From: Asparagopsis taxiformis
Lineage: Eukaryota; Rhodophyta; Florideophyceae; Bonnemaisoniales; Bonnemaisoniaceae
Assembly (NCBI GenBank): GCA_030407315.1
Contig: JALQPE010002793.1
Location: forward strand, 84,501 to 148,500
Reading direction: 5' to 3'
Length of the DNA stretch: 64,000 nucleotides
Each line of letters begins with the position of its first letter. Position 1 is the stretch's first letter. The position numbers and the translations under genes are program-made. The notes beneath the pieces were generated by a model, which saw nothing but the letters and a program-made list of their open reading frames with translations, was not told the origin of the DNA and ran no database searches. Below, piece after piece: positions 25,541-61,332 of this stretch.

Positions 25541-25559
25541 AAGCGCAACTAGGAAACCG

Positions 25560-42200: not shown

Positions 42201-42889
42201 CTGAAGATCTAGGTATGTCCCCTTTTGAGCTGGACCTGGGATGGATTCCAAAGTCTCCTTTGGACTTTGTGTCTGGAAATGAGATACCTGTGCAAAGTGT
42301 TGAGGAATTCAAGAAACGGTTTACAGCTTCTCTTGAAGATGCTAAGTACTCTTACAACATTGCGAAAGCAGCACAGAGTGCGTATGCCTCCAGAAAGTTC
42401 AAGGATCCAGACTATAGGGTGGGATCCAAGTTATGGATCAACAGGTCTTTGTTCAGGGATGCATACTCCCAGTCTCAGGAAAAGGAGAAGTTGACAGCAA
42501 GACGTTTTGGACCGTTTGTTGTGAAGGAATTGATTGGCAAAAATGCAGTTAGGTTGGATCTTCCTGATCATATCAAGATTCATCCTGTTGTTAATGTCAG
42601 CCACACAATTCCTCATATAGAACAACCGAGTGATATTGCTGCTCCAATACCTCCTGTACCGGCCCCTGTCCCTGCTATTGAAGGTGACGAAATCGAGGTT
42701 GAAGCGATCTTGAATCATAGAAAAAGAGGACGAGGATATCAGTTCCTAACCTTGATGAAAGGTAGTCCTACGCATGATGCTTCATGGCAACCTACGAGGG
42801 ATTTCATAGACAGAGATGGCACGAAGACTGGAATATGGTTAGAATACATCCGGAAGAAGAATATTCTACCGGAATATCATGATGAATAA
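39185..42889 (+). CDS. pol: pol polyprotein: protease, reverse transcriptase, RNase H, integrase, chromodomain
   Basis: About 1234 aa, no ATG at the front (TTG at 39185; frame open from 39164), so expression by -1 frameshifting from gag is expected. In order: an aspartic protease region with LKDDGCNTNVVGAEFL (DDG instead of the usual DSG/DTG); RT with KYFSKLDLKTGFHQIRV, MPMGLCNAPASFQ and VVYMDDLLVFSK (catalytic DD near residue 450); RNase H with HVDASQLAVGGTL and FTDNQVLKSFF; integrase HHCC zinc finger (HDSRISGH...CMKCQQYK) and DDE core (WVDRLTRRVHF, SDRDRKFTSKFW, HPQTDGTSEIMNR); and a C-terminal chromodomain (VEAILNHRKRGRGYQFLTLM...ASWQPTRDF). The chromodomain places it among chromoviruses, which target chromatin marks. 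The frame is unbroken. Confidence 0.95.
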   Translation: MGSTKFLSTGKLVGPPKNKLYAQDGPEKSVNVRCADAQVKRPEKPGRAVPRQEKGRVEPRVLEAESNTTVGKESITTDDPIPVDPLLVFHGKLNGLPVKVLKDDGCNTNVVGAEFLRKQKSRGNFMIQKEKIQVSHSRKGSTEEASEVIIKGTLNMGSHTYTSNWVVANCRYDVLLGMPWHVAHNPVIDYKKRIVKCGHQLLHACKDPDDPRIHVTNLGVRKFRKMLRNRKNSNDFEVYQVFEKENIQGMKGSKHSERLGKLLTKYQEVFRSDLPDGLPPKRTVDHAIDVQKDAKPPLRPLFQLSPAELRAAKEYVEELLKKGKIRSSKSPYGAPLFFVKEKEKLRGVVYYRALNRITKRNNAPLPRSDEMFDRLGGSKYFSKLDLKTGFHQIRVKPEDIEKTAFNTKYGQFEYLVMPMGLCNAPASFQTLMNQIFYDCIDVFLVVYMDDLLVFSKTEEEHFRNLETVLERLKRNELYVSPKKCEFFQTEIDFLGFLVGRDGIRVNPEKVDVLKTWPKPKSLTELRSFLGLLQFFRRFIPKFSGIAAPLTDLTKKEKGIGHWDEICDEAFQKLKDAMIQAPILVAPDWRKAFRGHVDASQLAVGGTLTQLDKNGKDRVIAFYSKKLSSTEADYTANDRELLALICFLERFRCYLEGVEFEIFTDNQVLKSFFSKAKLSRKEARWLETLGNFGIFPITLKPGKIHVLGDVLSRAPHVINGRNASFSNIEVPEINFEDIVTRYDDDQFFGPVVRAMEGDFPEDEIQKRKLEKIIPLFCRERARLFYNGKLCVPRRSVSSILQMAHDSRISGHFKFLKTLARLEKFHWRHKARDVRKYVEGCMKCQQYKDSNQKKLTYPTSLEIPERRWGSLATDFIVSLPKTKDGYDAITTWVDRLTRRVHFIKSRGTDTAEDVANAFFSNIFKLHGLPDNVVSDRDRKFTSKFWDCLMELCGVKLKMSTSRHPQTDGTSEIMNRMIENYLRCYCSYNQDNWDELLPSAEFSYNSAVSEDLGMSPFELDLGWIPKSPLDFVSGNEIPVQSVEEFKKRFTASLEDAKYSYNIAKAAQSAYASRKFKDPDYRVGSKLWINRSLFRDAYSQSQEKEKLTARRFGPFVVKELIGKNAVRLDLPDHIKIHPVVNVSHTIPHIEQPSDIAAPIPPVPAPVPAIEGDEIEVEAILNHRKRGRGYQFLTLMKGSPTHDASWQPTRDFIDRDGTKTGIWLEYIRKKNILPEYHDE

Positions 42890-44911: not shown

Positions 44912-45295
44912 GTAGTACCCGCCCATAGCAGGACGAGCATGGAGGAATTCACATGTTCCAGACGTGTCCTTTTCGTCACATTGTCCTTTTTTATTGTGGT
45001 AGGGCAAGGAGAGGAGAAGAAGGCAAAGAAATGGAAGCAGAAAACTCCATATGCTGTCTGCATTCCCTTGACATGCACTGGAGACGGTATGTACCGGAAA
45101 GGTGGGAATGATACTATAGTTCACGTTGAAATGAACGACGGGGTCCGAGAAGTTTTGCACGTACATAACTGCGAGTCAGGAGTTTCTTCATACGATAGAC
45201 AAAGTGGCATTGTAGAGCACAATAGTGATATTCTTTCTGGTGGTGAAGTGAGCGTCTTAACTAGAGAAGATGGATACCCACCACGTTCAGCATAG
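44909..45295 (+). pseudogene. Remnant of a Tnp2/Plavaka-like transposase C-terminus
   Basis: The last ~50 codons (REVLHVHNCESGVS... to EDGYPPRSA) align with the last ~50 residues of transposase copy 1 (SVIRVATIHACSTEH... to LGYPPRTA), including the very end. The upstream part is not convincing. No transposase core precedes it, so it is a 3' fragment of a third family member. Confidence 0.5.
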
Positions 45296-45554
45296 AGTGT
45301 TCCAGCACAGTGTTTAATACATCAGTAAACTTTCGTAATTCATTTAGCAGCAGTCCTGATCAAGTCTTCCAACAAATGCTATACAAAATTTGTACATGTC
45401 GTTTGAAGAATAGAGTGGGATTTTGTTCCATGCGCACAAATAAAGTGTGTTTTGCGAAGAGCGTACGCACTTACGTACGTATGACGCCATTGGTACTAGA
45501 GATGGAGCCGCGAGTTGCAGGACTCCTAGTTCCACAAAGTTGAGTTCGCATAAT

Positions 45555-45775
45555 CCAATGGAGAGCTGGCACCTGGCCAATGAAGTGGAAAATAATACCC
45601 GGTATAGTTTTCTGGCTCCAGTGACAAGTGGAGTATTGTGACTGATGGCTGTCTGCTGGCCAATGGGGAGCCGGCACCTGGCCAATGCAGTGGAAAATAA
45701 TATTATTTTTACCGGGTATATACCCGGTATAGTTTTCTGGCTCCAGTGACAAGTGGAGTACTATGATTCATGGCA
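45555..45775 (+). repeat. 105-bp direct repeat, left flank of the ParB-dioxygenase gene
   Basis: Two copies starting at 45555 and 45660 (CCAATGG.GAGC.GGCACCTGG...). They share the words CCAATGG, GGCACCTGGC and AAAATAATA(N)CCGGTAT with the array at 49802-50273 on the other side of the gene. The second copy carries an extra palindrome, ACCGGGTATATACCCGGTAT. Confidence 0.7.
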
Positions 45776-46022
45776 ATGGGATGGTTTTGGGAACGAAGGA
45801 ATTGTGTGTGGGAAGTCCTTCGTCGAGGAATGACAGATGGCCGAATACAATTGGAGCGCGTGGAAGGTGAATCAATAACTGATATTTCACGTTTAAACGT
45901 GTAGGGAGATCGTTTCCCGCCAAATACCACCTTGAAAGAGGAATATCTCTTGATCGTGTAGTCGGAGAGAAAAGGTGTCTTTGTCATCCTGAACGGCTTC
46001 TCTACGCGTCCAAATCTTTGCA

Positions 46023-47081
46023 ATGGCCGGAAGCGACACTGAGCGCGCTGCGGAACCAAAGGATACCGTCGAAAGCGTTGCAGAGAGACTTGCAACGACG
46101 GTAGGCGGTGATAAAACACCCTCCAGAGGTTCTTCTGATGGAGGGGCTCCGTCTGCAGCGGGAAGGGAGACGGCAGATAGCCAGACACCCATTCAGGGAG
46201 CAGACGCTGCCATGATAGAGGCAGCAAAAACCCTTGGTGATATATCACCATCTAGGAAAAACACTCTACGCTTTCCATCTACTCCTGGGACGGTGAAATC
46301 GAAAAACAGGGAGAGGTCTAACGTCCGTGAAGGCGAGGGGAGTCCTGCTGGCATGGAAGCATCAGAAGAGTCTGTGATGGGGATTGACATCAACATTGTC
46401 GAATGCAGGACTGAACCTAAAATGATCAATCCGCTAGATGTTGCCAAACCGGAATCAACTTCTCGTCTTGTGCAGGAGGCCAGAGTGCGCGATCTGGTCA
46501 GCAAAATATCTACCGAGGGGTTTCTGGAAACTGGCACCCGAATGACCATCTGTGAAACAGTGGGGTCAGACGGACGGAAGAAACTGCAGTGCATTGATGG
46601 AGGTCATCGTATCAGCGCTTTGCAGTCGATTATGGAAAACAAACCGACAGTTGCTGATCGATGGAGACTGAGGAGCATTAGCGTTGACTTCATCCGACCA
46701 CCTGGAACCCGTGAAATGTTTCATCCTCTTGAAGTGATGCGAATATCGCAGAAGCTGAACAAAAAGACTCATGACGTGATAGAAGTTTCTATTGCTGACC
46801 ACGTCTGTACGGTCATGAAGTTCATGATGATGAAGGGCTTGATGAAGGCGAAGGTAAATGTGTGCACAAAAGTTGTAGTCGAGAACAAGGTCATTCCAGG
46901 TTGTCAGGAAGGAATCATGATGAAGTACGTTTCGATTGCGCAGGGCTTCGGAGACGTAAATAACCCGGCGTTCGAACATTGGTCAGCTATCCCAAGTCGA
47001 TTTGCAACTGAAACTAGTCCGCCAGACTCGAAGAATATGCAGGGATGCACTGTGGACGTCCTATTCGCTTCTGCGTTTTGA
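46023..47081 (+). CDS. ParB-like domain protein, N-terminal half of a probable ParB-dioxygenase fusion
   Basis: ATG 46023, 352 aa to a TGA at 47079-47081. Residues 1-120 are hydrophilic and low-complexity. From about 150 a ParB/Srx-like domain follows: EARVRDLVSKISTEGF, then CIDGGHRISALQSIM near residues 190-203 (the (D/G)GxHR motif of ParB N-terminal domains). Next comes a helical block, MRISQKLNKKTHDVIEVSIA. Both blocks are matched in the ParB-methyltransferase gene at 53138-56170 (VVDGMHRLTAIQELM; LGRHQNRKHDATLYVE), so the two share a module. The next ORF is in the same frame, only this one TGA apart. I infer a single ancestral gene of about 1175 codons. ParB N-terminal domains bind CTP and DNA in bacterial partition proteins; the role here is unknown. 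Confidence 0.65.
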   Translation: MAGSDTERAAEPKDTVESVAERLATTVGGDKTPSRGSSDGGAPSAAGRETADSQTPIQGADAAMIEAAKTLGDISPSRKNTLRFPSTPGTVKSKNRERSNVREGEGSPAGMEASEESVMGIDINIVECRTEPKMINPLDVAKPESTSRLVQEARVRDLVSKISTEGFLETGTRMTICETVGSDGRKKLQCIDGGHRISALQSIMENKPTVADRWRLRSISVDFIRPPGTREMFHPLEVMRISQKLNKKTHDVIEVSIADHVCTVMKFMMMKGLMKAKVNVCTKVVVENKVIPGCQEGIMMKYVSIAQGFGDVNNPAFEHWSAIPSRFATETSPPDSKNMQGCTVDVLFASAF

Positions 47082-47090
47082 AAAGCTTCG

Positions 47091-49550
47091 GTGGACACCA
47101 AACTTGTCATTCTAGAGCTCACTGCAATGTGGACGATGTGGAAACGTAGGAAAGGAGATGGTGGTATAAGTCTAAAGACATGCGCGCAAAAGTGGTGCTA
47201 CAGCATTTGTGAAATATATGACATACTTGAGAAAGCTGTACGGAAAGAAAACTCCTGGCATTCCTCACCTCATCCATGTTTCAGGAAGTTACATGAAGTA
47301 CCGGAGCCAGGTGGACGAACACGAAAAACCATACGATATCGCATTTTGACTGTCCTCAAAGATTTCTATCCTTCCGACGCACCAACTGGGAGAGGTATAC
47401 GTGCAGCATTGACGCGGTCTATGATGAAAGAAATCCGTTATGTGGTTTTCAACGGCCCAATTCTATTGGATGACTCTCTCGACCATTCCGTCGCGCCTGA
47501 AATAGGTGTGCAGGAAAGGCGGACTAGGCGAAAATCCTTGGAAGGGAATACTGCACCTCAACCACGACAACAATCCGCATCGTATGGTGATACTTCAAAT
47601 GCTGCCATTGATCGCTCGGACGTGGTACAGAGTCCAAATGTACTTACCCAACCGCAGACACAGGGCAGTCTGGAAATATCGGATCGTGTTAACGCTGAGG
47701 TCGGTGCTGCAACACAGGTTGGTGAAGAGGCGACAGGGAAAGCGGCAGATTCCGAAAGCGCAAAGCAGGTTACAACGGACCGCGCAGTGCCTACTGTGCC
47801 AACCGAGAACAATTCTTCGAAACCTGGAGATTGTGAAGTTGGGGATGTGTTGCAGAAGAACGTAGGAACTCAAGAGCTTGAAACAACTGGTGCAAATCGA
47901 GGAAGAAATGACCACGGTGATGAAAATGACCTGCAACACTCACCTAGCCCAGTGGCAGCCGGAAGTGCCACGCTCAGACCAGAGCAGGGTGGAAAGTCGC
48001 CGGCGAATATGTCAGTTGGTCATCCAAGAACTGGTCGAGATGGTGAAGGAGGTCCTGAATCTAGGAAGAGCGATGGGTCTGGAACGAAAGATGTCCTCGA
48101 AGAAAAATGTCCCGAACATTCTTCTGGAAGGACAACGGAGGACCCGATGAAAGGTGTACGAAATCAGGGTGATGGCACTGGAGACGCTATGTTATCTACA
48201 GCGGATGTCGGCCTACCTGTTTTACCTGAGCTGGAGGACACGGAAACACCTGTTACCAGTTCTACGCCTAGGAAGTTGATGAAAGCCAAGCACAGCAGTG
48301 GTTTCGTGCCCTTAAAGGCAAAGCCGAGGAATACGGAGACGCCGTCAATGATTCTACGATCCAAACGGAAATTGGTGGATGTCACCCCTCAAGAGGTTAT
48401 TGACCTAGTGGGAGATGATACCAGCAGGCCGCGGCAGAAGAAGAAGCAAAAGATGCGTGAAGACGCAAATTTACAATCCGGCAAAGACGCTGCAGTCCAC
48501 GCGGTTCAAGGAGGTCAGTATTCGGACAGGCAACAAAATGATGTCCCTGACAAAGATGTGGAGGAAGGTATAGAAGCGAAACTGCCTGTTATCATTCATC
48601 CCGACAGTCGAATGAAATACTATGTGAATGGGAAACTGGTCGATACGCTTCGAGCCGAGGTCGCTGAAGCAGCAGCGAGTGCCTATTCGGCACAAAATGT
48701 TTCCGCTGAGTTTCTCTCGAGGGCTTATTTCCGAGAGAAACGAAATGAAATAGACTTGGTTGGGTTTACAATTCTGGACGGAATATTCAAGTCTTCTACT
48801 ACTGCAGATGCGATCCACGAACTGCTCCTTCATTTTTCTGCGTTGTTTGAGGAACGTCTCGAGGATGCCAAGAAGAACTCTGAATCCGGTGACACCCGCA
48901 GAGATCCGGACTGGACACCGTGGTGCATGGCTATGATGGATGGGAAAAACTCTGATGAAGAAGGTGAGAAGGGCAGAGGAATCTTTATAACAAAGCGGAA
49001 GAGCTTATGTGATGACCTCGAGGATAACAATAATAATCTCTATCGGAAGAAGATGATTGTTGAGCTCGGTCTAGGTATTTGTGCGGAAGGTTTGGAATTG
49101 AGGACTAGTGGGAAGGACCCGATGGCCTTCCCCAGCACTGGAACTACTTTAGTGCTAACTGGAGAGCGGACTAAACCTCGTGCTGGACATACAGACTATG
49201 AAGTGGGAATCGATGAAGTTAACAGTCCCCCTTCTCCGCCATCCTACTTCATGATGTCAAGCGGCGCAGATGGATTCGGCCTCGTGCTTGCACCCTACAG
49301 TCATGTCTGTTTATCTCATCCCAACAGAGAGTTATACAGAGTTCCAATGAAGAGGTGTGAAGTACCACCATATTCTGTTCTTGTCTGCCGAGGGGATGTT
49401 TATCACCACGAGGAAGGATTTGAGAGCAATAAGGGTCTTCAATACAAGTTCCCGATCCGATCTCACATATTCCTCAAAACTGAGCAGCATCAAAGTGAAG
49501 AAGGAGAATATGTCGTTGGACATTGGGAGGGCAATTCGAAATTGAAGTGA
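47091..49550 (+). CDS. 2OG-Fe(II) dioxygenase-like protein, C-terminal half of the ParB fusion
   Basis: In frame with the ParB ORF, entered 9 bases after its TGA; the first possible start is a GTG, so it is probably not a separate gene. Residues 1-115 are helical. 130-480 are low-complexity and charged, ending in a basic nuclear-localisation-like RPRQKKKQKMRED. The C-terminal domain (about 490-819) includes GHTDYE (H700, D702), SYFMMSSGADGF, PPYSVLVCRGDVYHHEEG (distal His 772 or 773) and FPIRSHIFLKTE (R790). The HxD...H...R order and spacing fit the double-stranded beta-helix of 2-oxoglutarate/Fe(II) dioxygenases, the superfamily of TET/JBP and AlkB. A dead paralogue at 25560-29025 conserves the same residues. 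Substrate is unknown; a DNA base is a guess prompted by the ParB module. Confidence 0.65.
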   Translation: MDTKLVILELTAMWTMWKRRKGDGGISLKTCAQKWCYSICEIYDILEKAVRKENSWHSSPHPCFRKLHEVPEPGGRTRKTIRYRILTVLKDFYPSDAPTGRGIRAALTRSMMKEIRYVVFNGPILLDDSLDHSVAPEIGVQERRTRRKSLEGNTAPQPRQQSASYGDTSNAAIDRSDVVQSPNVLTQPQTQGSLEISDRVNAEVGAATQVGEEATGKAADSESAKQVTTDRAVPTVPTENNSSKPGDCEVGDVLQKNVGTQELETTGANRGRNDHGDENDLQHSPSPVAAGSATLRPEQGGKSPANMSVGHPRTGRDGEGGPESRKSDGSGTKDVLEEKCPEHSSGRTTEDPMKGVRNQGDGTGDAMLSTADVGLPVLPELEDTETPVTSSTPRKLMKAKHSSGFVPLKAKPRNTETPSMILRSKRKLVDVTPQEVIDLVGDDTSRPRQKKKQKMREDANLQSGKDAAVHAVQGGQYSDRQQNDVPDKDVEEGIEAKLPVIIHPDSRMKYYVNGKLVDTLRAEVAEAAASAYSAQNVSAEFLSRAYFREKRNEIDLVGFTILDGIFKSSTTADAIHELLLHFSALFEERLEDAKKNSESGDTRRDPDWTPWCMAMMDGKNSDEEGEKGRGIFITKRKSLCDDLEDNNNNLYRKKMIVELGLGICAEGLELRTSGKDPMAFPSTGTTLVLTGERTKPRAGHTDYEVGIDEVNSPPSPPSYFMMSSGADGFGLVLAPYSHVCLSHPNRELYRVPMKRCEVPPYSVLVCRGDVYHHEEGFESNKGLQYKFPIRSHIFLKTEQHQSEEGEYVVGHWEGNSKLK

Positions 49551-49801
49551 TGAAGGGCATCTGTCCAGCCGTGTTGAAGCCTTAGTTGGGTATGAATCCG
49601 TAGAGTAATAAACACAATTCCAATAGAACATGATAAAAGAGATACTGCATGGATTCTTTATATAGTCAGATCAACTTCACAAATGTAACAAACACCACAT
49701 GCAGAAAGCTATTCTCCACAGAAAGCTCTACCTACAGGAGCTGCAAATTCTAAACCTCTTCAGTAGATGCAAGAAACGATAGCAGATAGTAAAACCTGGT
49801 A

Positions 49802-50273
49802 TTATATTACATCGTTCACTATCCCCGGTAAAATTTTCAGTTCCTGAGAACAGGAGTCTGGCCGGGTATAAAGTTGGGTGGGTGTAGACCAAGTGCACCA
49901 ACCCCATTGCCTGGGGGTACTCCGGATAACCTCAGCCAATGGCGTTGGTGCACCTGGCTTTTGGGAGGCCAAAATAATACCGGGTATTATTTTGGGTCGG
50001 TATAGACCAAGTGCACCAACGCCATTGGCCGAGGTTGTCCAAACTACCACCGGCCAATGGCGTTGGTGCACCTGACTTTTGGGAGGCCAAAATAATACCG
50101 GGTATTATTTTGGGTCGGTATAGACCAAGTGCACCAACCCCATTGGCCGGTGGTAGCCGGATACCCTCGGCCAATGGCGTTGGTGCACCTGGCTTTTGGG
50201 AGGCCAAAATAATACCGGGTATTATTTTGGGTCGGTATAGACCAAGTGCACCAACCCCATTGGCCGGTGGTAG
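49802..50273 (+). repeat. 118-bp tandem array of palindromes, right flank of the ParB-dioxygenase gene
   Basis: GGGTCGG recurs at 49994, 50112 and 50229 (period 117-118), with a diverged copy before. Each unit holds GTGCACCAAC(G/C)CCATTGGCC and its near reverse complement. It also holds a 23-bp palindrome with arms AAAATAATACC around one G. The array stops abruptly at 50273, where the next element starts. Confidence 0.85.
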
Positions 50274-50318
50274 AACACTGATTTCGCTATGAACAGAACG
50301 TACTTTCCAAACCAGAAT
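50274..50318 (+). repeat. Left terminal inverted repeat of element F
   Basis: 45 bp, pairs with 63918-63962; the three differences are isolated substitutions. Confidence 0.85.
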
Positions 50319-50422
50319 CCAACTTTCTGAAGTTGATTGAACATGAGAGATGTTTTTTCATATTGATTGAATAGGATAACAAAGTTGATTGAACTACTCG
50401 TGTCGTCGAAGACGAGGCGTTT

Positions 50423-52936
50423 TTACTTCGGAATAGACGCCAGGCCTGACCTGATCTCTTTCTCTACCCCAGCTCTTATCATCTTGTTTGTTAGTGAAGG
50501 GAACTCTGCAATGACGGTGTCAACCGAAATATGTCCTTTCCAAGCCACTGTTGTTCTCCCCTTGCGAAGCATGGCAGGCCTATACTTACCTGACCATGCG
50601 TCTCTTCCATCGTAGACCTCGTACCACCGAACACACAGCTGACAAATAACCCCTTCGTTGTTTTTCTTACAACTCATAATTTGTCCTAGCCAGAACGGCA
50701 TCTCAGTAGTACAGTCTTCTCCATTTACAGCCACGAAGCGATTCACCGAGTAGGACAAGTCTGATAGTGGTATGCAATCTGCAGTCGACATGAGTTCCTC
50801 CTCCATCGGGACGACGTTCCGATTCCCTTTTCGATACATGCCATTCATCTCGAAACATTCGGTGAGGTTCCAATGAAAAGAATCTTCCCTTTCCTCATAA
50901 ACCTGTCGTAGAAGCTCATGTAGCTGATCCATTTTAGAATTGTTATTGACCCTGCTCTCTTCCGAACGAAAACGGAGCAGGATCTCATGTCGATCTGGAG
51001 GAGAACGTATGATATTACTCGGTGTTCGTTTCAGTTCAGGAGGCTTAACCAGGAAACCATTCAGCCCCGGAGTGAGAACTGGGAGAGGCTTCTAGTTGTC
51101 TTCACAAAATATCTTAACATCGCATGCAGTTCTGTAGAAGTCATAACTTTTTCCTGTATCTTGGGATCGGTGAAACCTGAAGTATCTGAATTTTGAGAAA
51201 GCATGCACTTTTCCAACCGAATTCTCACTCCGGCAGAGACCGGAGAAGTTTGCCACGTGCAACATACGAGAGACAGAGGGTTCCGGAGTATAGGACACTC
51301 TGAGTTGTTCAACTAAATCTTCCATAGTGACGGCGTTGTGGGAACGTAGCCTGCGAGAGGTACAGCTAAAGGCCTGGTCGATGTCTGCATGGGTGTGGCC
51401 GATGGGTAGGAAAGAAGCGTGTACTTCTTCAAACACACCCCAAGCAACGAGACATTCTAGATAGCAAAACAGAAACGTGTTCTTGTTCTCTCTTGTGCAA
51501 TTGTCTACCTGCAAGTACAGTGTTCCCTGAAGACTCGAACCCATAGCCTTTTTGGTAAGAGTCCTGTGAATTGCCTCGATGATATGATTTGCCCCAGTTT
51601 CGAATTCAGCAGTAAGTGTGTACAACGAAAGATGCTTTCGGACACCATGTTCGAGAACACCTATGAGTCTCACCTTCAAACTATGACCAACAGTCGCTTT
51701 TGTACATACCGTGAAATGGGGAAGACCGTATCCTGATTGATCAGCCCCGTCTACGATCAGAGACGTGAACCTGGAGGGATATAGTGACGCTTCTTCACAC
51801 TTCTTTTGATACTCCCTGCGTTCCCGTGCCACCATCTCGATATGACGCTGGCGACGTTCCAGAAGCGGAGCAGTGCGTTGAATATCTGTCCCGATGGCTT
51901 CCAGTTTATCACGTATGTACTCACATTCCGAACATTTCGTGAACCTCTGGACACGCCGAACCTTGATATTCGCGCAAAACGTGTTCCAGGTGTTGTAGAA
52001 GTAGCTCAAAGTTGGTGGGTTCCGGTTCGAGTATAATAACGTAAATTGGTCGCAGAACATCTCGTACACAGCCTTCTTCTCGAAAAGAGGCAGATGCTTC
52101 TCTCCACTGTCTGGCATCATATCAGCAGTCGAGGCAGACAAGCGTTCAAGGAAGCAGATCACTGCATCTCTATGTGGAGAGCCAGAAATTCGTTTCGGAG
52201 AAGCCATAAATGGAAGACTCCCATTCTGGCAAGCTTTCTTTACCGAGGTCTGGAGGTGTCGTGAAAACTTGAAGCTGTACTCTAGGAATTCGCAACACAC
52301 AGGCTTCCCAGAGAAGTAGAACCGGTTACTGTTTGGTTCCAGTAGAGCGTGCAGATACCTGCGGCGATCGTCCCTGTTGTACAACAAAACTCGTTCTGCT
52401 TCATTCCGAAGGAAAACATGGTCGGTTTTTCTGAAGCATCCCTTATTGCAGCATGGTATTCTTCTTATATCTGTTTTGGGCAGTGACAAACTGAACTTCA
52501 CCCGCCTCTCTAGCATGCTGCTCTTTCGACGAACTGAACTGGACCTCGTCACACTTTCATAATTCTTCCTGTGTTGTAGTCGTGAAAATGGTTTATACAT
52601 CGAAGCCGTGGATCGGAAAGAGTCGGAAGAAGTACCCACTATTCCATGCATCACTTCATCGTGGCTACGCGGCACAGATATGGTTTCAACAGAAGGAGCG
52701 TGTTCTGATTCGGAGTCCCTAGAAAGAGATTTCATGTATGATTCGGCTTTCTCCAGTGCGTCATTCCTAGCTTCGGCGAGATGAAAACGCGGAGCCATCT
52801 GCTGTGGGAGCAGAACGAATGATCTCTGAACGGTAGTTAGATTTGCAGGTAGCGTGGAAAAGAGATGGCTGCAAGACGAGTATATCGGTTGATCAAGATG
52901 CATGGTGAGTAGGAATGACACCGGTGAGACGTTCAT
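50423..52936 (-). CDS. Putative RNase-H-fold transposase of the DUF7869-like type, one in-frame TAG
   Basis: One frame of 838 codons from ATG 52936 to 50423, broken only by a TAG at 51092-51094 (codon 615). N-terminus: Cys-rich CCNKGCFRK and a block ending PVCCEFLEYSFKFSRHLQ, shared with the gene at 57487. Then KCSECEYIRDKLEAIG, a Glu/Arg-rich coiled coil, and a core with IVDGADQSGYGLPHF (near 391), LYLQVDNCTRENKNTFLF (near 476) and FLPIGHTHADIDQAFS (near 515). Proteins with this D..DN..ENKN..GHTH.DIDQ order occur in eukaryotic mobile elements (family I know as DUF7869). The spaced acidic residues suggest an RNase-H-like nuclease or transposase. After the TAG comes a C-terminal domain (NRFVAVNGEDCTTEMPFWLG, VRWYE, YRP) also shared with 57487. 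It is the best candidate for the mobilising enzyme of element F. The TAG may disable this copy or mark it as recently dead. Confidence 0.6.
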
Positions 52937-53137
52937 CTAATATGGATGCAGAGTGGCCTCCTCGACGGCGATAGTTGGCCCAGGATACAGCGCCAAATAC
53001 CTATGTCAAATCAATCTCTGTTGTGAATGGAGTACGGCTGATTGGTTGATTTGTGCTCTTCATGCGCCCATGATTACGGGGAAAAATGACAACAATCTTT
53101 CCTCTCTGAAGGCCGAGCGAAACTATACGTAATAAGA

Positions 53138-56100
53138 CTAAGACAACGGCCTCATCTTGTTCAAGTCCCATGCGAATATCCCGTTCAGCCCTTTCAAAGT
53201 TCCAGGAGGAGGTTCAATACCACCGTATTTGTACGGGTAAGGACAATCCAAACAACATTCGTTCGGTTCGAACATATAACAAGATACAAGTTTCTGATCC
53301 TCACCTTGAAAGTTCGCTAGAGGTACATTGTGTATTGTAGTTTGGAACCTCTCATCACTAGTTCCTGCACAAAGGAGAGACGCTTTTCCGACGACCTGAT
53401 CCAAAATGTATAGTTCAACAGAATCTCCTCCTTTCAGTACTCTCTCTATTCCTTCGATAGTGGATTTACCGGCATTTGTATTATCATCTTTTCCCTTTTT
53501 CTGTAGCGAACAGATTTTCGGTTGGCTTAGCAGAACGCCATCCTCTGCATGATTCCCTGTTCTCCTCTTCTTCGATCCGATACGTGATCTCAGATCATTA
53601 TGATACAAAGCATCGGCAATAGAACGAAGTCTTTCATGAGCGAGACGGAAAATCTTGGTACTAGCTTCCACAACCACACATGAACGGGCTGTCTTCATCG
53701 CTGCGATCGCAGTAGTAAGTGTTCCTCCGTAAACATCAATAACTGAACCCCTCTCAGGACAAAACGTGTTGATTATCTCGGATAACATTCCAATATGTTT
53801 CTCTTCTGTTAGAACAGGAGATTTTGTTCCTGGAGTGAGAAGTTTGTCTTTCGAAACGGGAATTCTGGACATTGCAGCGAATTTCCGTTTCGTTTCTGTT
53901 GGGACGAGGTGATATTGGCTTCGAAGGTCTGGCTTGAAACCGTCCTTACGATGTCCGGGAGCCCTGGCAACAACTGCAAACTCGCACGCGTTTTGTGGGA
54001 ACATATCTCCGCGATGTGCTTGTACAGTGTTCGTGTCTTTCATGAATACGAAAGGGTATTCCGGACCGTCGAAACCGACGTTTCTCAGCTCATGCAGGAA
54101 TGCTGGAAAGTTTCGGAATGATACAAAACAGAAAAACCAGCCACCTGGCTTCAAGGTTCTCCTTGCAAACTGGCATAATGCATTGATTTCCTTATCACTT
54201 ATGAAATTGTTATATGCGGTATTACGAAGGGATTTAGAATTCGGAGTTCCATACGGAGGGTCGGTAAGAACTAAATCCTGAAGAGGGTACTCATCTGTCC
54301 ATATTTCCTTGTCGAAGTCCTGCCATTTCATCTGATAGCATGTAATTCCCATTTCAAGAACGTAGTCTTTTCTTTCTGGCTCATTCGTACCAGATGAACC
54401 GCGTTTAGAATGAAGGTTGAGGCGGTCTGAGTTGATACTAGGTGAAGCAGAGACATCGTTCTCTGTTATCATTCGGTCGACTGGAATAGAAGTTTTCGGT
54501 CCGGTGATAACCTTTTCAGAAGCGTCAACTTCATCTTGTACAGATTCTTGCGTTATCTGGCTCATCTTCGGTACCGAGACTATATCCTCATCACATATTT
54601 CGGAGCCTAGTTGAGGAACACTATCTTCCTTCGAGACATCTTTTTGTTTCTCTTCTTTCGCGTCCCTTGTATCTGCATTTTCGTTATCGGCTGCCGTCTT
54701 GCCAATTTCCTGACAGAAAGAATCGGGATCTGGGTCTTTTCGATGGCTTTCCCGATACTTCTTTTCCTTCATGGGAGCAATTTGAGGGCAAACTTTCCGG
54801 TACTGCTTCAAAAGAGCACCCAGAATATTATAATCGTTTCCCATGTTCTCCATAACATCAGTATCGAACTTTGATGAGCGAAGTAGATTCTGCTTGATTG
54901 ATTCCATGCCCTTTGGCCATACCTGTCCTTCATGAAGAACCTCGAACTTACGCGCTTCTTTCATCGCTGCGCATGTGTATTCGTATTGCTGGAGGGTATC
55001 TTTGTATGATACTGGTTTGAATTTATTCAATCTGGAGATTCCCCGAAGCCTGTAAAGAGTATGAACTTGAACTTCTTCAGCATCAGTACCCGAAGCATTC
55101 ATGAACTTGGTTGCAGATTTCAAAGATGTTAAATTCACAAATTTGCGATACACGCGACAGTCAACGCTTGTCATTGGGGTATTAGTACCCTTTCTCCGAG
55201 TTTTCAATGCCATACTGTTGCTAGAAGGAGGTTCTGCCAAGTCTGGATGCTCCGAATTCATAATTGTTCCAATCTCTTCGATCACTCGCACAGGAAGGCG
55301 CAATGCCGTCGCAGCAGTCTGTCTCACGGTGTTATCCTTGAGGTGGGAGCAACCATCATATGCGGCAGCAACTTGTTTGGCTGTAGGTGGCTTTGAGGTC
55401 ATGCTCTGCATCCGGTGGGCTTCTTCTTTCATTCCGCTCAGGATATCATAGAACGTGGTTTCGACATATAATGTTGCATCATGCTTACGGTTCTGATGTC
55501 TGCCTAGTTGTTTCAGAACTTGGATAGAATGACCTCCTTTCAGTATCGTGACAGGCCACATAAAAGAGTCCCACCTCTCCGGGTTCTCATCCATTAACTC
55601 CTGGATTGCAGTCAGTCTGTGCATACCGTCAACAACTCCGTACCAAACGGAACGGCATTCGGACTTCTCTTTCGCCTCACTGTCAGAAAGAAAATCACCC
55701 TGAGGACCGCGTATCGTTTTGAAAAAGTCAATAATGTGGCGCTGGAACGACCCGGTCAACTCGACTACGATCGCATTGTCGGAGCCCGAAATGAATCCAT
55801 CAATTCCGTTTGTTTCATCTTGTTCTCGACATTGTGCTGACTTTATGTTTCCAGAAAATATCGACTTCAATCGCAACACACCAGAGCGCACTACTTGTCG
55901 AACAGCAGTGAGTGGGATGCATGCCCGCGGATCAACACGTGTGTTCGTAGACCCTTCCATGACGTCTGCAAATAAGGCGGTATTAGTGTGCTTCATGGTG
56001 GAAGTACCCGGTTCCTCTTCTGGAGGACCTGATTTGGAACTGAGTCTGGACCCACTCCTCTTGAAGAATCTCGTCATGTCATCCAGTTCTGAAATAATGA

Positions 56101-56170
56101 AGTGCCGGGTAAGAAATGAAGGGGAAACAGAAGCTATAAAACTCTGTATCAATTTCTCGCACTTTCGCAT
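53138..56170 (-). CDS. ParB-like domain fused to a DNA (adenine-N6 or cytosine-N4) methyltransferase
   Basis: ATG 56170, 1010 aa, uninterrupted. Residues 70-190: ParB-like domain with ACIPLTAVRQVVRSG, IVVELTGSFQRHIIDFF and VVDGMHRLTAIQELM. 190-500: helical linker shared in part with the ParB-dioxygenase gene. 480-600: charged low-complexity. 605-850: methyltransferase with LVLTDPPYGTPNSKSLRN (catalytic motif IV DPPY near 637), FARRTLKPGGWFFCFVSF, and SVIDVYGGTLTTAIAAM (the AdoMet-binding FxGxG-type motif I near 810). DPPY before the AdoMet motif is the beta-class order of bacterial and phage amino-methyltransferases. The C-terminal tail has Cys clusters (CCLDCPYPYKYGG). ParB-methylase fusions are common in phages and bacterial mobile DNA and unusual in eukaryotes. 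A 104-bp hairpin sits 50 bases upstream. Likely role: methylating element or host DNA at sites chosen by the ParB module; target base unproven. Confidence 0.8.
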   Translation of the reverse strand: MRKCEKLIQSFIASVSPSFLTRHFIISELDDMTRFFKRSGSRLSSKSGPPEEEPGTSTMKHTNTALFADVMEGSTNTRVDPRACIPLTAVRQVVRSGVLRLKSIFSGNIKSAQCREQDETNGIDGFISGSDNAIVVELTGSFQRHIIDFFKTIRGPQGDFLSDSEAKEKSECRSVWYGVVDGMHRLTAIQELMDENPERWDSFMWPVTILKGGHSIQVLKQLGRHQNRKHDATLYVETTFYDILSGMKEEAHRMQSMTSKPPTAKQVAAAYDGCSHLKDNTVRQTAATALRLPVRVIEEIGTIMNSEHPDLAEPPSSNSMALKTRRKGTNTPMTSVDCRVYRKFVNLTSLKSATKFMNASGTDAEEVQVHTLYRLRGISRLNKFKPVSYKDTLQQYEYTCAAMKEARKFEVLHEGQVWPKGMESIKQNLLRSSKFDTDVMENMGNDYNILGALLKQYRKVCPQIAPMKEKKYRESHRKDPDPDSFCQEIGKTAADNENADTRDAKEEKQKDVSKEDSVPQLGSEICDEDIVSVPKMSQITQESVQDEVDASEKVITGPKTSIPVDRMITENDVSASPSINSDRLNLHSKRGSSGTNEPERKDYVLEMGITCYQMKWQDFDKEIWTDEYPLQDLVLTDPPYGTPNSKSLRNTAYNNFISDKEINALCQFARRTLKPGGWFFCFVSFRNFPAFLHELRNVGFDGPEYPFVFMKDTNTVQAHRGDMFPQNACEFAVVARAPGHRKDGFKPDLRSQYHLVPTETKRKFAAMSRIPVSKDKLLTPGTKSPVLTEEKHIGMLSEIINTFCPERGSVIDVYGGTLTTAIAAMKTARSCVVVEASTKIFRLAHERLRSIADALYHNDLRSRIGSKKRRTGNHAEDGVLLSQPKICSLQKKGKDDNTNAGKSTIEGIERVLKGGDSVELYILDQVVGKASLLCAGTSDERFQTTIHNVPLANFQGEDQKLVSCYMFEPNECCLDCPYPYKYGGIEPPPGTLKGLNGIFAWDLNKMRPLS

Positions 56171-56220
56171 GAAGGACTTGAAATGATTGTCATGAACGCC
56201 ATACTCAAGTACAGTGTATT

Positions 56221-56324
56221 TTCACCATGCATAGTACACTGGCCCAAACCCGAAATGACCGTTCACATTGGATCCAATGTGAACGGTCATTTCGGTTTTG
56301 AGCCAGTGTACTATGCATGGTGAA
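56221..56324. repeat. 104-bp loopless hairpin upstream of the ParB-methyltransferase gene
   Basis: Two 52-base arms complementary at 50 positions, centred on GGATCC. It lies 50 bases from the methyltransferase ATG. It could be a foldback micro-element, a binding site for the encoded protein, or a dsRNA/cruciform-forming control element. ACCGTTCACAT of the arm recurs near 58581, just after the gene at 57487-58569. Confidence 0.95.
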
Positions 56325-56675
56325 GTATCTTGGCCATGCAGGACACGACACGGCTCAAACCGGATTACGACGGCGGTGGTGGCCCGAGTATCGTGGTTAC
56401 CATTGCTTGGAAGACAATTGAAGTGGATAGGAGACGCAAGCACTCTCCCAATGATTACCAGTCAGAAATATAGTAGCGGGGTATTCTAAAAATTATATTG
56501 CGCCGGGCCGTGTCCATCCAGATGATGGAATGATTTGGCAATCTGATTTGCTATGTTGCTCACAACACTTGGCATATTTTTTTTCATATTTCCCAGGAAT
56601 GGCCCATCTCACCAGGACTATTTCCTATACAGGAAATGGGCCGTACACATCATCTTTTCGCTGCTAATAGCAGGA

Positions 56676-57104
56676 ATGTCTGAACAGGTTTCGCCACCTT
56701 CCCCTCCGATACCAATATTACCGAACAGGTCTGAGTATCTTGCACACCGAAAACCCATTCTCATTTCCCCATTGCAATGCCATTTTTCAGTAAACAGCGC
56801 AGCTACCAGGTTTCTTTCATCCCTTAATACATTCCATATCCTACATTACACCTTAGAGTACATTCCTACCCACTGCAACTTAGACGATAAACAATGCATA
56901 TTAGAAATAGAAACTCAGACCGAAAGAACATTATTATTGCTTGAACGGTGCACAAAGCAGGCCTGCCAAAAAGTAGTACGTTGTACTGTTCTCAAACTAC
57001 AGAAGCTTGATTCGATTTTTGTACAACTAAAATGGTGTTTACAAGGTTCAGGTGCAATAGCATGCAACTTGATACATATAAATGGTAGAACATTTACATT
57101 ATGA
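56676..57104 (+). CDS. Unrecognised 142-aa ORF
   Basis: I chose ATG 56676 (MSEQVSPPSPPIPILP); the frame opens at ATG 56553. It has a Pro-rich start and then a mixed, fairly Cys-containing body (LERCTKQACQKVVRCTVLKL). No recognised domain. It overlaps by ATGA the next frame (57101-57397), which is also unrecognised. It lies between the divergent ParB-methyltransferase and the gene at 57487. Coding status uncertain. Confidence 0.35.
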   Translation: MSEQVSPPSPPIPILPNRSEYLAHRKPILISPLQCHFSVNSAATRFLSSLNTFHILHYTLEYIPTHCNLDDKQCILEIETQTERTLLLLERCTKQACQKVVRCTVLKLQKLDSIFVQLKWCLQGSGAIACNLIHINGRTFTL

Positions 57105-57397
57105 CTCCATTCAATGAAAAGAATATTGTTCTACGAACATGTGGAATAATAACGGGAGCAGATAATGAATCGTTCCCACCAAGAGTATTCGGATTAGAGA
57201 TCAGACAGATAACATGTCTTTCCACAGTCATTGCTGGTTTAACTACGACTGGCACGCTGGAATCCTTCAATTCAAGAGAGTTCCGGGCGTCCAATGAGAT
57301 CGATGGATTCAAGGCTCATAATTCAAGAAGTACATCTCGTTCCGAAAAGTACAGAAAGCGCTCATTTGTGACATATTTACATCCTGAGCGTTTATAA
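57101..57397 (+). CDS. Unrecognised 98-aa ORF
   Basis: ATG 57101 to TAA 57397. Hydrophilic, ending in a Ser/Arg-rich basic tail (NSRSTSRSEKYRKRSF). No known motif; could be spurious. Confidence 0.25.
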   Translation: MTPFNEKNIVLRTCGIITGADNESFPPRVFGLEIRQITCLSTVIAGLTTTGTLESFNSREFRASNEIDGFKAHNSRSTSRSEKYRKRSFVTYLHPERL

Positions 57398-57486
57398 CTG
57401 ATTAGAAGCTGGTTCCCGTTCTGGTATAAAGCAGGACATGTGCTGCAAGTCCCCGACACTTTCGCCCCATACCACCTCCATCAACA

Positions 57487-58569
57487 ATGACCGAATCATC
57501 AGGATCTAAAATAGACCGACTGTCTTTCGCGATGAAAGGACAGGTGTCCTCTATCAGGAAGAGAAATCTGGACAGGGCAAAAATCATAGCGAAAAAGTTC
57601 GAAGATGGAGAATTGCACAAGGTACAATGCTGTTCCCGGCGCTGCTTCGAAATTGCTGCCAGCGAAGATCTAGTAAGGGACTCATTTCGAGTCGTTGAGT
57701 ATGACCGTACGAGACGACAGCGCTACTTAGTATCGTTATATGAGCCGGTGTCGGAAATGTACGCATATCGCGGGAGTGCCGTCTGCTATCAATTCTTAAC
57801 GCAGGTATTCGGCTTCTCCCGCGAGATGCAGTGGTCAAACAAAAAACCACTGAAAAAAGCTGCGCAACTGGCGATCGAGAAAAAAAGGGGGGGAGAGTGT
57901 GAACGTTGTGAGCGCTGTATGCGACTCCGCTCTCCATCTCCGCACCATCGAGTACGCTTGCCGGCAGACAAAGCGCATCAATCCGCGCCGAAAAATTCGC
58001 ACATTGACACGTTCAGTGCACAGAAATCTGATATGGACAAACATCTAGCGACGCAAACACAGCCGCAATCTCCTACGGACAAAAATGAAGTGTCGCGTGC
58101 TGAGCCTACGGACAAAAATGAAGTATCGCGTGCTGAGCAGCAGTTTCAACCCTCCAAAGCTACTGAAAAGCCCATCGTGCAACAGTCCGAAAATTCGGAG
58201 ACGCTTTCGATTCACGAAGAAACGGCGCCGCCGAGTCTTCTGAGTGCTACACAATCGGGAAAGAAGTTGTTTCTGGTGGTCAAAGGGGATCAGTGTACGG
58301 ATGAGGAGCCGTTCTGGGTGGCGAGAACACATAGAATTACGCGCAAGGGAAACCGTATCGCAAAATTGATGGTTCATTGGTACACCAAAACGGACGCTGA
58401 CTCCTACCGGAGTAGGTACAAACCGTGCTTTGTGCTCGGCACTCCTACACCCTGGATTGACACAATTGCGCTTACTTCGGTGATTACAACGTTTGACTCG
58501 CTAGTGGACGGAAAGTTAGATGGTGCAACCTGTGATCGAGTACGAGAGCAGTTGCCATCGTTTAAATAA
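57487..58569 (+). CDS. Core-less relative of the DUF7869-like transposase (N- and C-terminal domains only)
   Basis: ATG 57487, 360 aa. Residues 35-120 (VQCCSRRCFEIA, RRQRYLVSLYEPVSE, SAVCYQFLTQVFGFSREMQ) match the Cys-rich N-terminal domain of the gene at 50423-52936 (IPCCNKGCFRK, RRRYLHALLEPNSN, PVCCEFLEYSFKFSRHLQ). Residues 255-355 (KKLFLVVKGDQCTDEEPFWV, VHWYTKTDADSYRSRYKP, SVITTFDSLVDGKL) match its C-terminal domain (NRFVAVNGEDCTTEMPFWLG, VRWYE...YRP, TVIAEFPSLTNKM). The whole catalytic core is missing. A charged linker with a duplicated 11-residue PTDKNEVSRAE takes its place. The frame is clean, so this looks like a maintained gene. A DNA-binding or competitor role, as in truncated transposase repressors, is inference. 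Confidence 0.65.
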   Translation: MTESSGSKIDRLSFAMKGQVSSIRKRNLDRAKIIAKKFEDGELHKVQCCSRRCFEIAASEDLVRDSFRVVEYDRTRRQRYLVSLYEPVSEMYAYRGSAVCYQFLTQVFGFSREMQWSNKKPLKKAAQLAIEKKRGGECERCERCMRLRSPSPHHRVRLPADKAHQSAPKNSHIDTFSAQKSDMDKHLATQTQPQSPTDKNEVSRAEPTDKNEVSRAEQQFQPSKATEKPIVQQSENSETLSIHEETAPPSLLSATQSGKKLFLVVKGDQCTDEEPFWVARTHRITRKGNRIAKLMVHWYTKTDADSYRSRYKPCFVLGTPTPWIDTIALTSVITTFDSLVDGKLDGATCDRVREQLPSFK

Positions 58570-59714
58570 GTTGGTAAGACCGTTCACATAAATGTATGTC
58601 GTTCAGAATCTCTTTAATGCCACTCACTCATTCATAATAATTCATATTGCAAAGTGCTGTGACGTGCATGCACTGTTGCACTGATTGCTTCACTGCCGCC
58701 ACACAGACATGCACACTTATTTGTACACCCTTCCGTGCAATCCATGCACGCCACAGACTCATGCACACTTCTTTGTACACCCATCCATGCACGCCACAGA
58801 CTCATGCAAACATATGTGTAAATCCATCCATGCTATCATGCATGATGCATGCTCCACGCTCCTATACCCCTGTACAATCATACACGCCGTATTGCAAAGT
58901 GCCGACGACCATACACTGCTCCACTTATTGATTCTCGAACGCCACACACTTATGTGTACAACCATCCGTGTCATACATGCTCCACACTCCTATACCCCTT
59001 TACAGTCATATGCTCCAGGCATGGACTGCTATAAGATCCTATTTGCACGTTGAGTGTGTGATGCAGTCCATGCATGGACGTATCACATGCTCCGTCGTGT
59101 GCTGATGTCCGCGTCGGCATGCACGCACTGTTGAGCGTGAATTACAATGAGCACCGCCAAGACATCCATGCCATGGCGTCTCGAGTACACACATGTACAC
59201 AATCATTGTGCACATTGTGCACATTATGCTCAAAGTATGCAACCGAAACACTGCCACTTATTGGCGGGAGCGGGAGGTACAACATGTCATGGAGGGGTGT
59301 GCTTGAAATTTGAGCACAACAGGCCGGTACAAAATTTTGAGTCACAATTTTGAATTGTGACATCTGATCAAATTTGTACCCGCGGCCGGCGGCTTTCCAC
59401 TGGAAGCACGCCGTCCATTTCACTGCCAGATAGTATGTTCTGTAAGCCGTGCATGCATGCATGACCACCAAGACCATCAAATCGTTCCCTCTCCCTTCCG
59501 TCTCCCATATCCTCTGTGTCTAACACCAAGTATGTGATGAAGACATGGTTGCCATCTCCTCCCGGACATTTTGTACTACCTGCATCTGTGCATCTCCCTT
59601 TCCGATTTCGTCGCGAGGGCGGTTGAGGTTACTATCATCAGGTTGGGCATTGTTTTCAATTTTCAGACTACAGGAACAATTGTTCTTTCCTTTTTTTGGG
59701 ACTAGCTCCAGCCA
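58570..59714. other. Non-coding, with short tandem-like repeats
   Basis: 58720-59000 is built from loosely repeated words (CATGCACGCCACAGACTCATG, TTGTACACCCATCCATGC). 59200-59225 repeats GTGCACATT. No gene recognised. Pyrimidine-rich tracts and AG before 59715 could mark a 3' splice site. Confidence 0.45.
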
Positions 59715-60122
59715 GTGCAACGAGCACCGAGTTTACCAGCGGGTCGAGCTGTGAAGCGCGACGAGCAGGGACGCCCGTTTCGACATAAGCGACTCCTATC
59801 GCTACCGCCTGCAAGTTCTGATCCGAGTCCGTCTACAACTACTGAACAAAGTCAAGAAGGGTCTGAGAATCATAGTGCGAAGCGACGCCGGATGGATCAC
59901 GTGCCTCACTTTGAACATGACGTAGCAATTGCGATACGCAAGTCTCTGATTCCGCCTGAGATGTTGCCGAATTGGGCTATGGTTCGAATCTTGAAATCGG
60001 CACCGCCTTCGAAAGAGCAGCTTACTTGTGATATTCTTCCGCAGCTGCAGGCGGAAGTAACGACAACAGTGCGATCGCTGATATCGTCTGCATCTGCAGT
60101 TTCGCAGACACTGGACGTCTAA
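59715..60122 (+). CDS. Unrecognised ORF or exon, 135 codons
   Basis: Open frame without a leading ATG (GTG at 59715), preceded by a pyrimidine tract ending in TAG/CAG, so it may be an internal exon. Ser/Thr/Pro-rich, with a basic NHSAKRRRMDH (possible nuclear signal) and a helical C-terminus (EQLTCDILPQLQAEVTTTVR). No family recognised. Confidence 0.3.
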   Translation: MQRAPSLPAGRAVKRDEQGRPFRHKRLLSLPPASSDPSPSTTTEQSQEGSENHSAKRRRMDHVPHFEHDVAIAIRKSLIPPEMLPNWAMVRILKSAPPSKEQLTCDILPQLQAEVTTTVRSLISSASAVSQTLDV

Positions 60123-61332
60123 CGGGAAGAACCGTCCGTCCTCGCACTCAATGCGCCACTTCATCGATAGTGAATGGACGTGGCGCCATACTAACCTTGG
60201 CATCACCCGATCATTTATCGGATTGCGTCTTTACCATCGTGCATGCGTCGCATAATCTCACTGACGACACTATCTTTTAGACTTCATGCATGCTGTCATG
60301 TAAACCGCGTGCTGGGCGCGGATATGTGGCATGCAACCAACTGATGATTTTACATTGCATGGCGAGCGTGACGCAACGGTGCAGAGTATCGCAGCTATAG
60401 TAGCACATGTCGTACGGCATCTAGATGATCGCGAGTATCGTGCGGAATTTTCAATCTTAGCACGCTGTTCATAACGTTCTATGACGAGAGCCTTGCGATC
60501 CGAGAAGGTACAGTTAAACGACATGGGCGTTTGTGTGTACACAGTCCTGTGCATGTGTTGCCTGCTCATCGACTGCACTTCATGCATCTCCTGACAATTT
60601 TATGATGTGATTGGGAGTTATTTGCTCGAAACAGAAGAGAAGTGGCGGATCTTATTTACACCCTTACTGACCATTCCGAAAATCTACTGGAACCCTACAC
60701 TGACTCTTCAGTCGAAGCACTTCTCATTCGTCTACAGGAAGCGAAACAAAACAATGACGCTGCATGTGTTCCTCGTCCTCCACCACGACCACGCGCATGA
60801 CGTCAACCTTTCGCGCATTCCGCGTAGATTCAGCGCCAAGCCCGGTCAGCCCGACATGCTCGTCACCCTCTTCAAGCGCGAACTCGAACATCTCCCACAT
60901 CCGCCACTTTGTCCTAAAAGCCCCGCCGCGCTACCATCTTTTCCGCTTGTCCATAACTAAGTATTCCATTCCCTCTGTTTCAAACTCCCGCCTTCATGAA
61001 ACTTCCCCAGAGCGCATCTTCGGGTCATGCGCTACAGATTGAAAACAAGACGTTTATGAGCTCAGACCCACAAGAAGGTTGAAGGGCAACGCGCCGACGA
61101 AGGAGAGGCGCTTCACTTAGAGGTGACGTCGATCATGCAAATCGCCAAAGCAACCCTCGCCACACTGCCAATCAACAGCAACTCACTTCCGAAACACACC
61201 GCCCGCAAACTCCCCAATCTACTCCTGAAAGGCCTCCAATAACCGAGTCCGAAGTTAATACGATGCACCCATTTTAATTACCCTGAATACGTGCGTTATT
61301 GCTTGTTCTCCCCGCGTCGTTTGGTTCTCGCG
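60123..61332. other. No gene recognised
   Basis: Contains a frame at 60607-60960 without recognisable content. Nothing else supported. Confidence 0.35.

Follow-up and report, generated by a model that had tools for sequence, protein, structure and literature searches.

Results

The sequence analysed here (the window) comprises 64,000 nucleotides of the red alga Asparagopsis taxiformis, C2664:84501-148500 of a source genome of 141.5 Mb in 3156 contigs, and holds two genes that carry the ParB-like motif DGxHR. In one, on the minus strand at 53138-56170, the motif is combined with a beta-class N6/N4 DNA methyltransferase; in the other, on the plus strand at 46023-49550, it is combined with a putative 2-oxoglutarate (2OG)-Fe(II) dioxygenase. 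An earlier interpretation of the bare sequence, here called the sequence-only reading, had described both as mobile-element genes and given the region as 45555-56170. Both do lie in mobile elements, but the region consists of parts of two unrelated elements joined at 50273/50274, which we name after their cargo the methyltransferase element and the dioxygenase element. Together with their copies elsewhere in the genome, these are best explained as two DNA transposon families, both large and recently active, with DNA-modifying cargo.

The methyltransferase gene and its element

The methyltransferase gene encodes 1010 amino acids and was recognised by PF01555, Foldseek and its genomic matches. 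As had been read from the sequence, a ParB-like motif and a DPPY methyltransferase, seen as VVDGMHRLTAIQELM and DPPYGT, both fall inside the minus-strand open reading frame (ORF) 53138-56170, which matches PF01555 with an E value of 1.1e-11 (45.6 bits against a cut-off of 26.7). The DGMHR motif is encoded at 55616-55630 on the minus strand (residues 181-185, within VVDGMHRL at residues 179-186) and the DPPY catalytic motif at 54251-54262, also minus (residues 637-640); in the family alignment DPPYGT lies ahead of DxYGGT, the DPPY motif thus coming before the AdoMet motif as in the beta class. Beyond the window protein itself (P0001) the family includes seven homologues of 37-56% identity, P0002-P0008, which, like the dioxygenase homologue P0011 introduced below, may derive from the same or other species. 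DGMHR is whole in five of the seven, P0008 reading DGTYR and P0007 being without that region, and DPPYG is kept in six, the exception again being P0008. Both PF01555 and the phage methyltransferase family PHROG 67 match seven of the eight family members.

An AlphaFold2 model built on the eight-row alignment has a mean predicted local distance difference test score (pLDDT) of 51.5, with block means of 63-87 across most of the methyltransferase core and of 36-55 in loops. Separately, the beta-rich C-terminal stretch (53138-53465, minus strand; residues 902-1010) shows block pLDDT values of 69-90 from residue 911. In a Foldseek search with the model the N6-adenine methyltransferases M.BceJIV (1.3e-10) and CcrM (3.7e-10) rank first and the rotifer N4CMT (8s9m, 1.3e-8) also matches; all 50 matches listed are methyltransferases. 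Judged from sequence and model together, the gene encodes a beta-class N6/N4 DNA base methyltransferase whose catalytic activity is predicted.

The element that carries it spans 50274-63962 and ends in 45-nt terminal inverted repeats, AACACTG..CAGTGTT, at 50274-50318 and 63918-63962. The left end at exactly 50274 is common to three other copies, with no match ahead of that base, and its inverted partner closes the element on the right. Two copies that could be read at both ends, on C94 and C2332, are flanked by 4-bp target-site duplications, TTGT and AACC, and the copy on C94 measures 14,181 bp. A DUF7869 protein encoded at 51092-52936 on the minus strand (PF25273, 1.6e-49) is likely the transposase, a role we presume, and an ORF at 57487-58569 on the plus strand has no Pfam match above cut-off. 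Upstream of the methyltransferase gene, at 56221-56324, lies a near-perfect palindrome of 104 bp, about 85 bp of which are absent from copies L004, L016 and L019.

Genome-wide, the methyltransferase gene gave 47 match rows at 45 places, a lower bound on its copy number since 45 candidates were scored; 24 rows are full length without a stop, 10 contain stops and 13 are partial without a stop. For the element this amounts to at least 45 copies that are nearly identical. The ratio of nonsynonymous to synonymous polymorphism (pN/pS) among 20 copies is 0.59. For this and for the dioxygenase gene, the comparison used the loci that scored highest as protein matches (20 of 47 and 11 of 39 rows, respectively), so that nonsynonymous changes are under-counted, and a codon was counted only if it differed at a single base.

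The window copy of the methyltransferase element departs from three other copies at 59514 and its flanks, GTAG and GTCC, differ; it is therefore not a clean insertion. Simple insertion into the dioxygenase element was considered and rejected, since about 1.36 kb of right flank holds no dioxygenase-element sequence and the flanks are mismatched. The junction may instead reflect a rearrangement or a join made in assembly.

The putative dioxygenase gene and its element

The first dioxygenase gene is read from two ORFs, 45993-47081 and 47082-49550, which lie in the same frame except for a TGA at 47079-47081 and contain CIDGGHRISALQSIM and an HxD..H..R motif. The corresponding residue is R in P0010, a protein 99% identical, and 38 of the 39 full-length genomic matches scored (hence a lower bound on copy number) are without a stop, 27 of them with an identical score. 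The stretch 46023-49550 is therefore one gene, as previously suggested, broken by a premature stop in the window copy; two separate genes, or a recoded stop, were rejected because other copies lack the TGA. Among 11 copies compared we counted two synonymous and no nonsynonymous single-base codon changes, a pN/pS of 0. The DGGHR motif is encoded at 46596-46610 (plus strand, residues 192-196), and repeats with the AAAATAATACCCGGTATA half-palindrome lie upstream of the gene at 45555-45774.

In the C-terminal domain, all on the plus strand, H1056 and D1058 of an H-T-D triplet (49188-49196) are putative iron ligands, H1128 (49404-49406) is the putative third ligand and R1146 (49458-49460) a putative 2-oxoglutarate contact, each invariant in P0010, P0011 and a second dioxygenase gene of the same element. 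P0011 (1086 amino acids) is 40% identical to this domain. The C-terminal domains of P0010, P0011 and the second gene (L043:1192-2355) are 38-46% identical, with 85 of 279 columns invariant, in an alignment made without the fourth dioxygenase row, L043:3-1259; H1055, D1057, H1127 and R1145 in P0010 numbering (the H700, D702, H772 and R790 of the sequence-only reading) are invariant in all three. The first and second histidines are 72 residues apart and the arginine follows 18-19 residues later, distances that presumably suit a double-stranded beta-helix (DSBH). A Pfam scan of four family members gave no TET/JBP match up to an E value of 10, the library being one that we take to include a TET/JBP model. 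We predict that the domain is likely a 2OG-Fe(II) dioxygenase; the invariance of four residues across domains of 38-46% identity, and not their spacing, supports this reading.

The left part of the dioxygenase element occupies 16163-22105 on the plus strand, beginning with the 5' terminus CACTACTGTGTCTG and subterminal CAGTAAA/TTTACTG repeats and ending in the two bases of a duplicated GT. Copies on C1931 and C1838 (L040 and L042) match the window from 16163 to 22009 at 98.6-99.2% and diverge before it. The terminus, a 5'-CACTAC end, is present in the window, C1931 and C1838 copies, and by this 5'-CACTA terminus the element appears to be CACTA-like. Its right part, 44912-50273 (plus strand), is cut at 50273. 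In an uninterrupted copy, L033, window position 22103 continues directly to 44912; the window copy is therefore split by a block at 22106-44911. The presumed transposase gene is split in the same way, into 18772-22105 (plus strand) and 44912-45295; its first part reads as two overlapping ORFs in the window, and in L042 the gene is a single ORF of at least 1088 amino acids with no Pfam match.

On C1838 the element covers at least 20.9 kb (C1838:24753-45631), as the C1838 and C2634 copies are still alike at the rightmost base compared; they are 99.7% identical over 5832 bases in the cargo region and 96.4% over 2849 bases before it. Downstream, the C1838 copy carries the second dioxygenase gene. 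One of its ORFs, which crosses from L033 to L043, contains IDGGHRVAALQ, and the gene continues in two frames at L043:3-2358; phmmer matches it to the first gene in both the N-terminal (1.1e-13) and the C-terminal part (1.9e-66). A gene on the opposite strand combines VLDGAHRSKA (L047:3-455), a DPPFNT methyltransferase motif (PF01555, 3.6e-14) and a SET domain (PF00856, 26.5 bits against a cut-off of 22.4, 9.3e-6; KMT2C/D chains, E 0.055-0.29). The DNA methyltransferase and the SET domain share one reading frame at L043:2936-5050 (minus strand). As the second dioxygenase and methyltransferase-SET genes both change frame internally, introns or frameshifts are assumed, and we infer that the pieces of each form one protein.

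Taken at the level of its genes, the intact dioxygenase element carries a DGxHR-methyltransferase-SET gene alongside its two DGxHR-dioxygenase genes; a writer and a putative eraser thus travel together. The sequence-only reading had envisaged a swappable ParB module ending in either a writer or an eraser. Transposon cargo, a DNA methyltransferase and DGxHR in both genes have all been borne out, but a simple swap between two elements has not: the dioxygenase element has a DGxHR-methyltransferase-SET gene of its own, and the methyltransferase of the window belongs to a different element.

The shared motif, candidate palindromes and the methylase background

The DGxHR motif occurs in both the methyltransferase and the dioxygenase families. 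BLASTP aligns the two window proteins with 32 bits (E 2e-4, 24% identity over 88 residues), and profile-profile comparison gave E 0.004 and a probability of 8.4%. When the 14-residue DGxHR core was masked, none of 12 cross-family pairs stood out, 57-485 of 500 shuffles reaching the score (two dioxygenases against six methyltransferases, P0007 and P0008 being left out as their motif is not intact). The suggestion that the shared region extends beyond the ParB motif finds no support in the sequences, and a long shared module was rejected by the masked-core test. Pfam DndB matches two of the eight methyltransferase family members (best E 0.0084) and a ParB-like PHROG one of eight (0.13); DndB is placed in the ParB superfamily by PMC10853773.

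A tandem array of 118-bp units (3.5 copies, 49862-50273) contains three AAAATAATACCGGGTATTATTTT palindromes, at 49971, 50089 and 50206, which are candidate parS-like sites. The palindrome AAAATAATACCsGGTATTATTTT thus occurs three times in the array behind the first dioxygenase gene and once each in L033, L043, L046 and L047, each near the 3' side of a gene; none was found in L042 and L048. Since ParB proteins load at short palindromes, we propose by analogy that these are candidate loading sites for the ParB-like parts.

At least 150 matches to PF01555 were found in the genome, all above cut-off (2605 candidates). The window methyltransferase, at 45.6 bits, is absent from the 150 listed, and clusters of score and frame length among them suggest several methylase families. 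An exon-by-exon search for the C5-methylase family PF00145 found no match in the genome, while 10 of 14 control genomes, all prokaryotes, were positive. CpG observed/expected in the window is 0.91. The lack of a PF00145 match, the abundance of PF01555 and this CpG ratio therefore favour N-methylated substrates; 5-methylcytosine (5mC) is unlikely to be the substrate, although it may still be present in the genome.

Other features of the window

The 22.8-kb block at 22106-44911 inside the dioxygenase element has CACTA-type ends, CACTACGGTGTTG and CAACACCGTAGTG, with CA..TG termini and a target-site duplication of GT when compared with uninterrupted copies. Such termini, with duplications of 2-5 bp, characterise CACTA/EnSpm transposons (PMC12730594). 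Its left end recurs in inverted orientation at 26776-26835 (60 bp, 98%), so the block may be a composite of two or more elements, and its two sets of dioxygenase-like exons may belong to different ones. The first set, at 25553-26091 (plus strand), matches the second dioxygenase gene (phmmer 9.7e-14 and 1.8e-5), and the second, at 28299-28833 (minus strand), matches P0010 (5.6e-24 and 4.8e-12), with HTD and RGDxYH motifs aligned in exons 28414-28833. For exon 28414-28620 the genome shows 150 or more matches at 97-100%; with so many near-identical copies a decay remnant was rejected, and introns are the likelier explanation. Also inside the block, a Ty3/gypsy-type ORF lies at 39185-42889 (plus strand; RVT_1 3.1e-38, Chromo weak at 0.0098 and under cut-off).

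Farther out, an ORF at 97-3174 (plus strand) resembles a Superfamily-1 helicase (AAA_12 2.5e-23, AAA_11 2.6e-14), and a long ORF at 4308-7910 (plus strand) has a weak Plavaka transposase match (5.2e-4, under the curated cut-off). Scans for tRNA and Rfam families across the window gave no matches. Phycobilisome genes gave 13 matches in the genome, 11 of them on contig C469, the pattern expected of a plastid contig, and these genes fit a red-algal host.

Discussion

The structure of the elements, their copy numbers (as lower bounds), their gene content, the methyltransferase and SET matches and the conserved HxD/H/R residues were observed directly. Building on them, we propose a mechanism in which element DNA would be loaded with the enzyme by its ParB-like part, the AAAATAATACC/GGTATTATTTT palindromes being possible loading sites. 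The methyltransferase would mark element DNA, most likely with N6-methyladenine (6mA), N4-methylcytosine being possible. A chromatin mark may come from the SET domain, and the dioxygenases would oxidise or remove N-methyl marks. Elements could then switch between marked and unmarked, for example keeping their own genes expressed or telling element from host DNA. We give a probability of roughly 0.55 to this reading, in which transposons carry DGxHR-methyltransferases and DGxHR-dioxygenases as a DNA-modifying cargo of ParB-loaded writer and eraser; dioxygenase chemistry, substrate, ParB targeting and biological role are the parts of it that we infer. A bolder form, in which a red alga without C5-cytosine methylation harbours giant transposons with a complete DNA-mark cycle, a ParB-loaded N6-adenine (or N4-cytosine)-SET writer together with dioxygenases, likewise ParB-loaded and forming a new DSBH family, by which the mark is erased or converted, is offered tentatively and seems to us rather doubtful. 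In that form, copies numbering in the hundreds and drawn from several families would act as writers and erasers on one another as well as on the host.

Several findings weigh against the writer-eraser proposal. By sequence the two genes share only a core of about 14 residues around DGxHR, the DGxHR part of the methyltransferase model (residues 131-190) has block mean pLDDT values of 50-79, and the 50 Foldseek matches listed for that model include no ParB structure. The palindromes behind the genes could, as a plain alternative, be 3'-end hairpins. For the dioxygenase C-terminal domain there is no Pfam or PDB sequence match. The HxD..H..R motif from which a dioxygenase had been read is present, with its four residues invariant, but the bare spacing was found in 1533 of 5000 shuffles and is thus common by chance. 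The negative result for C5-methylase is weakened by the exon-by-exon search and by positive controls that were all prokaryotes.

The ParB-like part may be a nickase or a nucleoside triphosphatase (NTPase) that serves the element's own transposition or replication, and not a targeting module. The ParB-methylase fusion Bce_0392 nicks, and ParB-like domains show NTPase and DNase activity (PMC5512222); the present sequence results, however, do not separate nicking or NTPase activity from binding, and we regard this function as possible yet doubtful. It is also conceivable that the dioxygenase is a hypermodifier and not an eraser, hydroxylating a base, perhaps one methylated by the element's methyltransferase, into a protective or instructive base, as JBP or CMD1 do. 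Enzymes of the 2OG class that hypermodify rather than demethylate are reviewed in PMC12730594, and a writer and a putative oxidase lie within one element; yet no glycosyltransferase or further modification gene was found by Pfam in eight element ORFs, most of them without any match and with the rightmost part outside the scan. We consider a hypermodifier unlikely.

The C-terminal domain might be no dioxygenase, its HxD..H..R residues being coincidental in an unrelated conserved domain, as the missing family or structure-database sequence match and the frequency of the pattern in shuffles would allow. Four residues invariant in three sequences of 38-46% identity, along with 85 of 279 columns, argue the other way, as do PPYS....RxDxYH and P[IV]RSH, which we take to resemble distal DSBH strands, and we judge a coincidence improbable. 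Least probable of all appears a DSBH enzyme acting on a histone or other protein, part of a chromatin kit of SET writer and demethylase beside the DNA methyltransferase: a SET domain is in the same element and many 2OG enzymes are taken to demethylate histones, but the domain is joined to DGxHR like the DNA methyltransferases, suggesting a DNA-associated task.

If, as the writer-eraser proposal holds, N-methylated DNA is the substrate of the domain and the domain is a dioxygenase, eukaryotic transposons would encode a non-5mC methylation cycle in both its halves, in a genome in which a C5 system was not found. What transposon-borne ParB-methyltransferases do, for which PMC12477816 offers a suggestion, would become testable with native long reads, and a 2OG-dioxygenase family without sequence match in the libraries searched would be added.

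The sequence-only reading knew of no described eukaryotic element with this pair. This needs to be narrowed, as transposons of brown algae and, by earlier work cited there, of green and red algae are known to contain ParB-methyltransferase genes (PMC12477816), and TET/JBP dioxygenases occur in fungal TET+ DNA transposons of the Kyakuja, Zisupton, EnSpm, Plavaka and other groups (PMC12730594). Among the papers listed in literature searches, none reports the ParB-dioxygenase fusion in its title or the beginning of its abstract, and a red-algal report (Petroll 2025) might cover these genes. PMC12730594 has no mention of ParB, and PMC12695648, on 6mA across eukaryotes, mentions neither 'ParB' nor 'red alga'. 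The methyltransferase half is thus known from algal transposons, and the dioxygenase half and the combined cargo seem new as far as the literature search reached.

The closest parallel to the methyltransferase half is Sola1-1_Ec32 of Ectocarpus (PMC12477816), likewise a large element (21.5 kb there) of an algal host in which a ParB-like part is combined with an N4/N6 DNA methyltransferase and a transposase lies beside it. The elements described here are others, and one of them has, in addition, a pair of DGxHR-dioxygenase genes and a methyltransferase extended by a SET domain. Fungal TET+ transposons are comparable in that members of several superfamilies encode a 2OG dioxygenase with a presumed role on modified DNA, most of the coding sequences being undisrupted (PMC12730594); theirs, however, are TET/JBP enzymes, whereas the domain here matches no Pfam family, is linked to DGxHR and occurs in a host without a C5-methylase match. 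Bacterial and phage ParB-methylase fusions (Bce_0392, PMC5512222) and polyvalent proteins unite a ParB-superfamily domain with an adenine methylase, as the methyltransferase genes described here may do. In contrast to them, the present proteins are longer and belong to eukaryotic transposons, with no phage context seen here. Finally, N4CMT of bdelloid rotifers is, like the methyltransferase of the window (Foldseek 8s9m, E 1.3e-8), a DNA methyltransferase of bacterial type in a eukaryote, but whereas N4CMT is reportedly a host gene, the methyltransferase here is high-copy transposon cargo.

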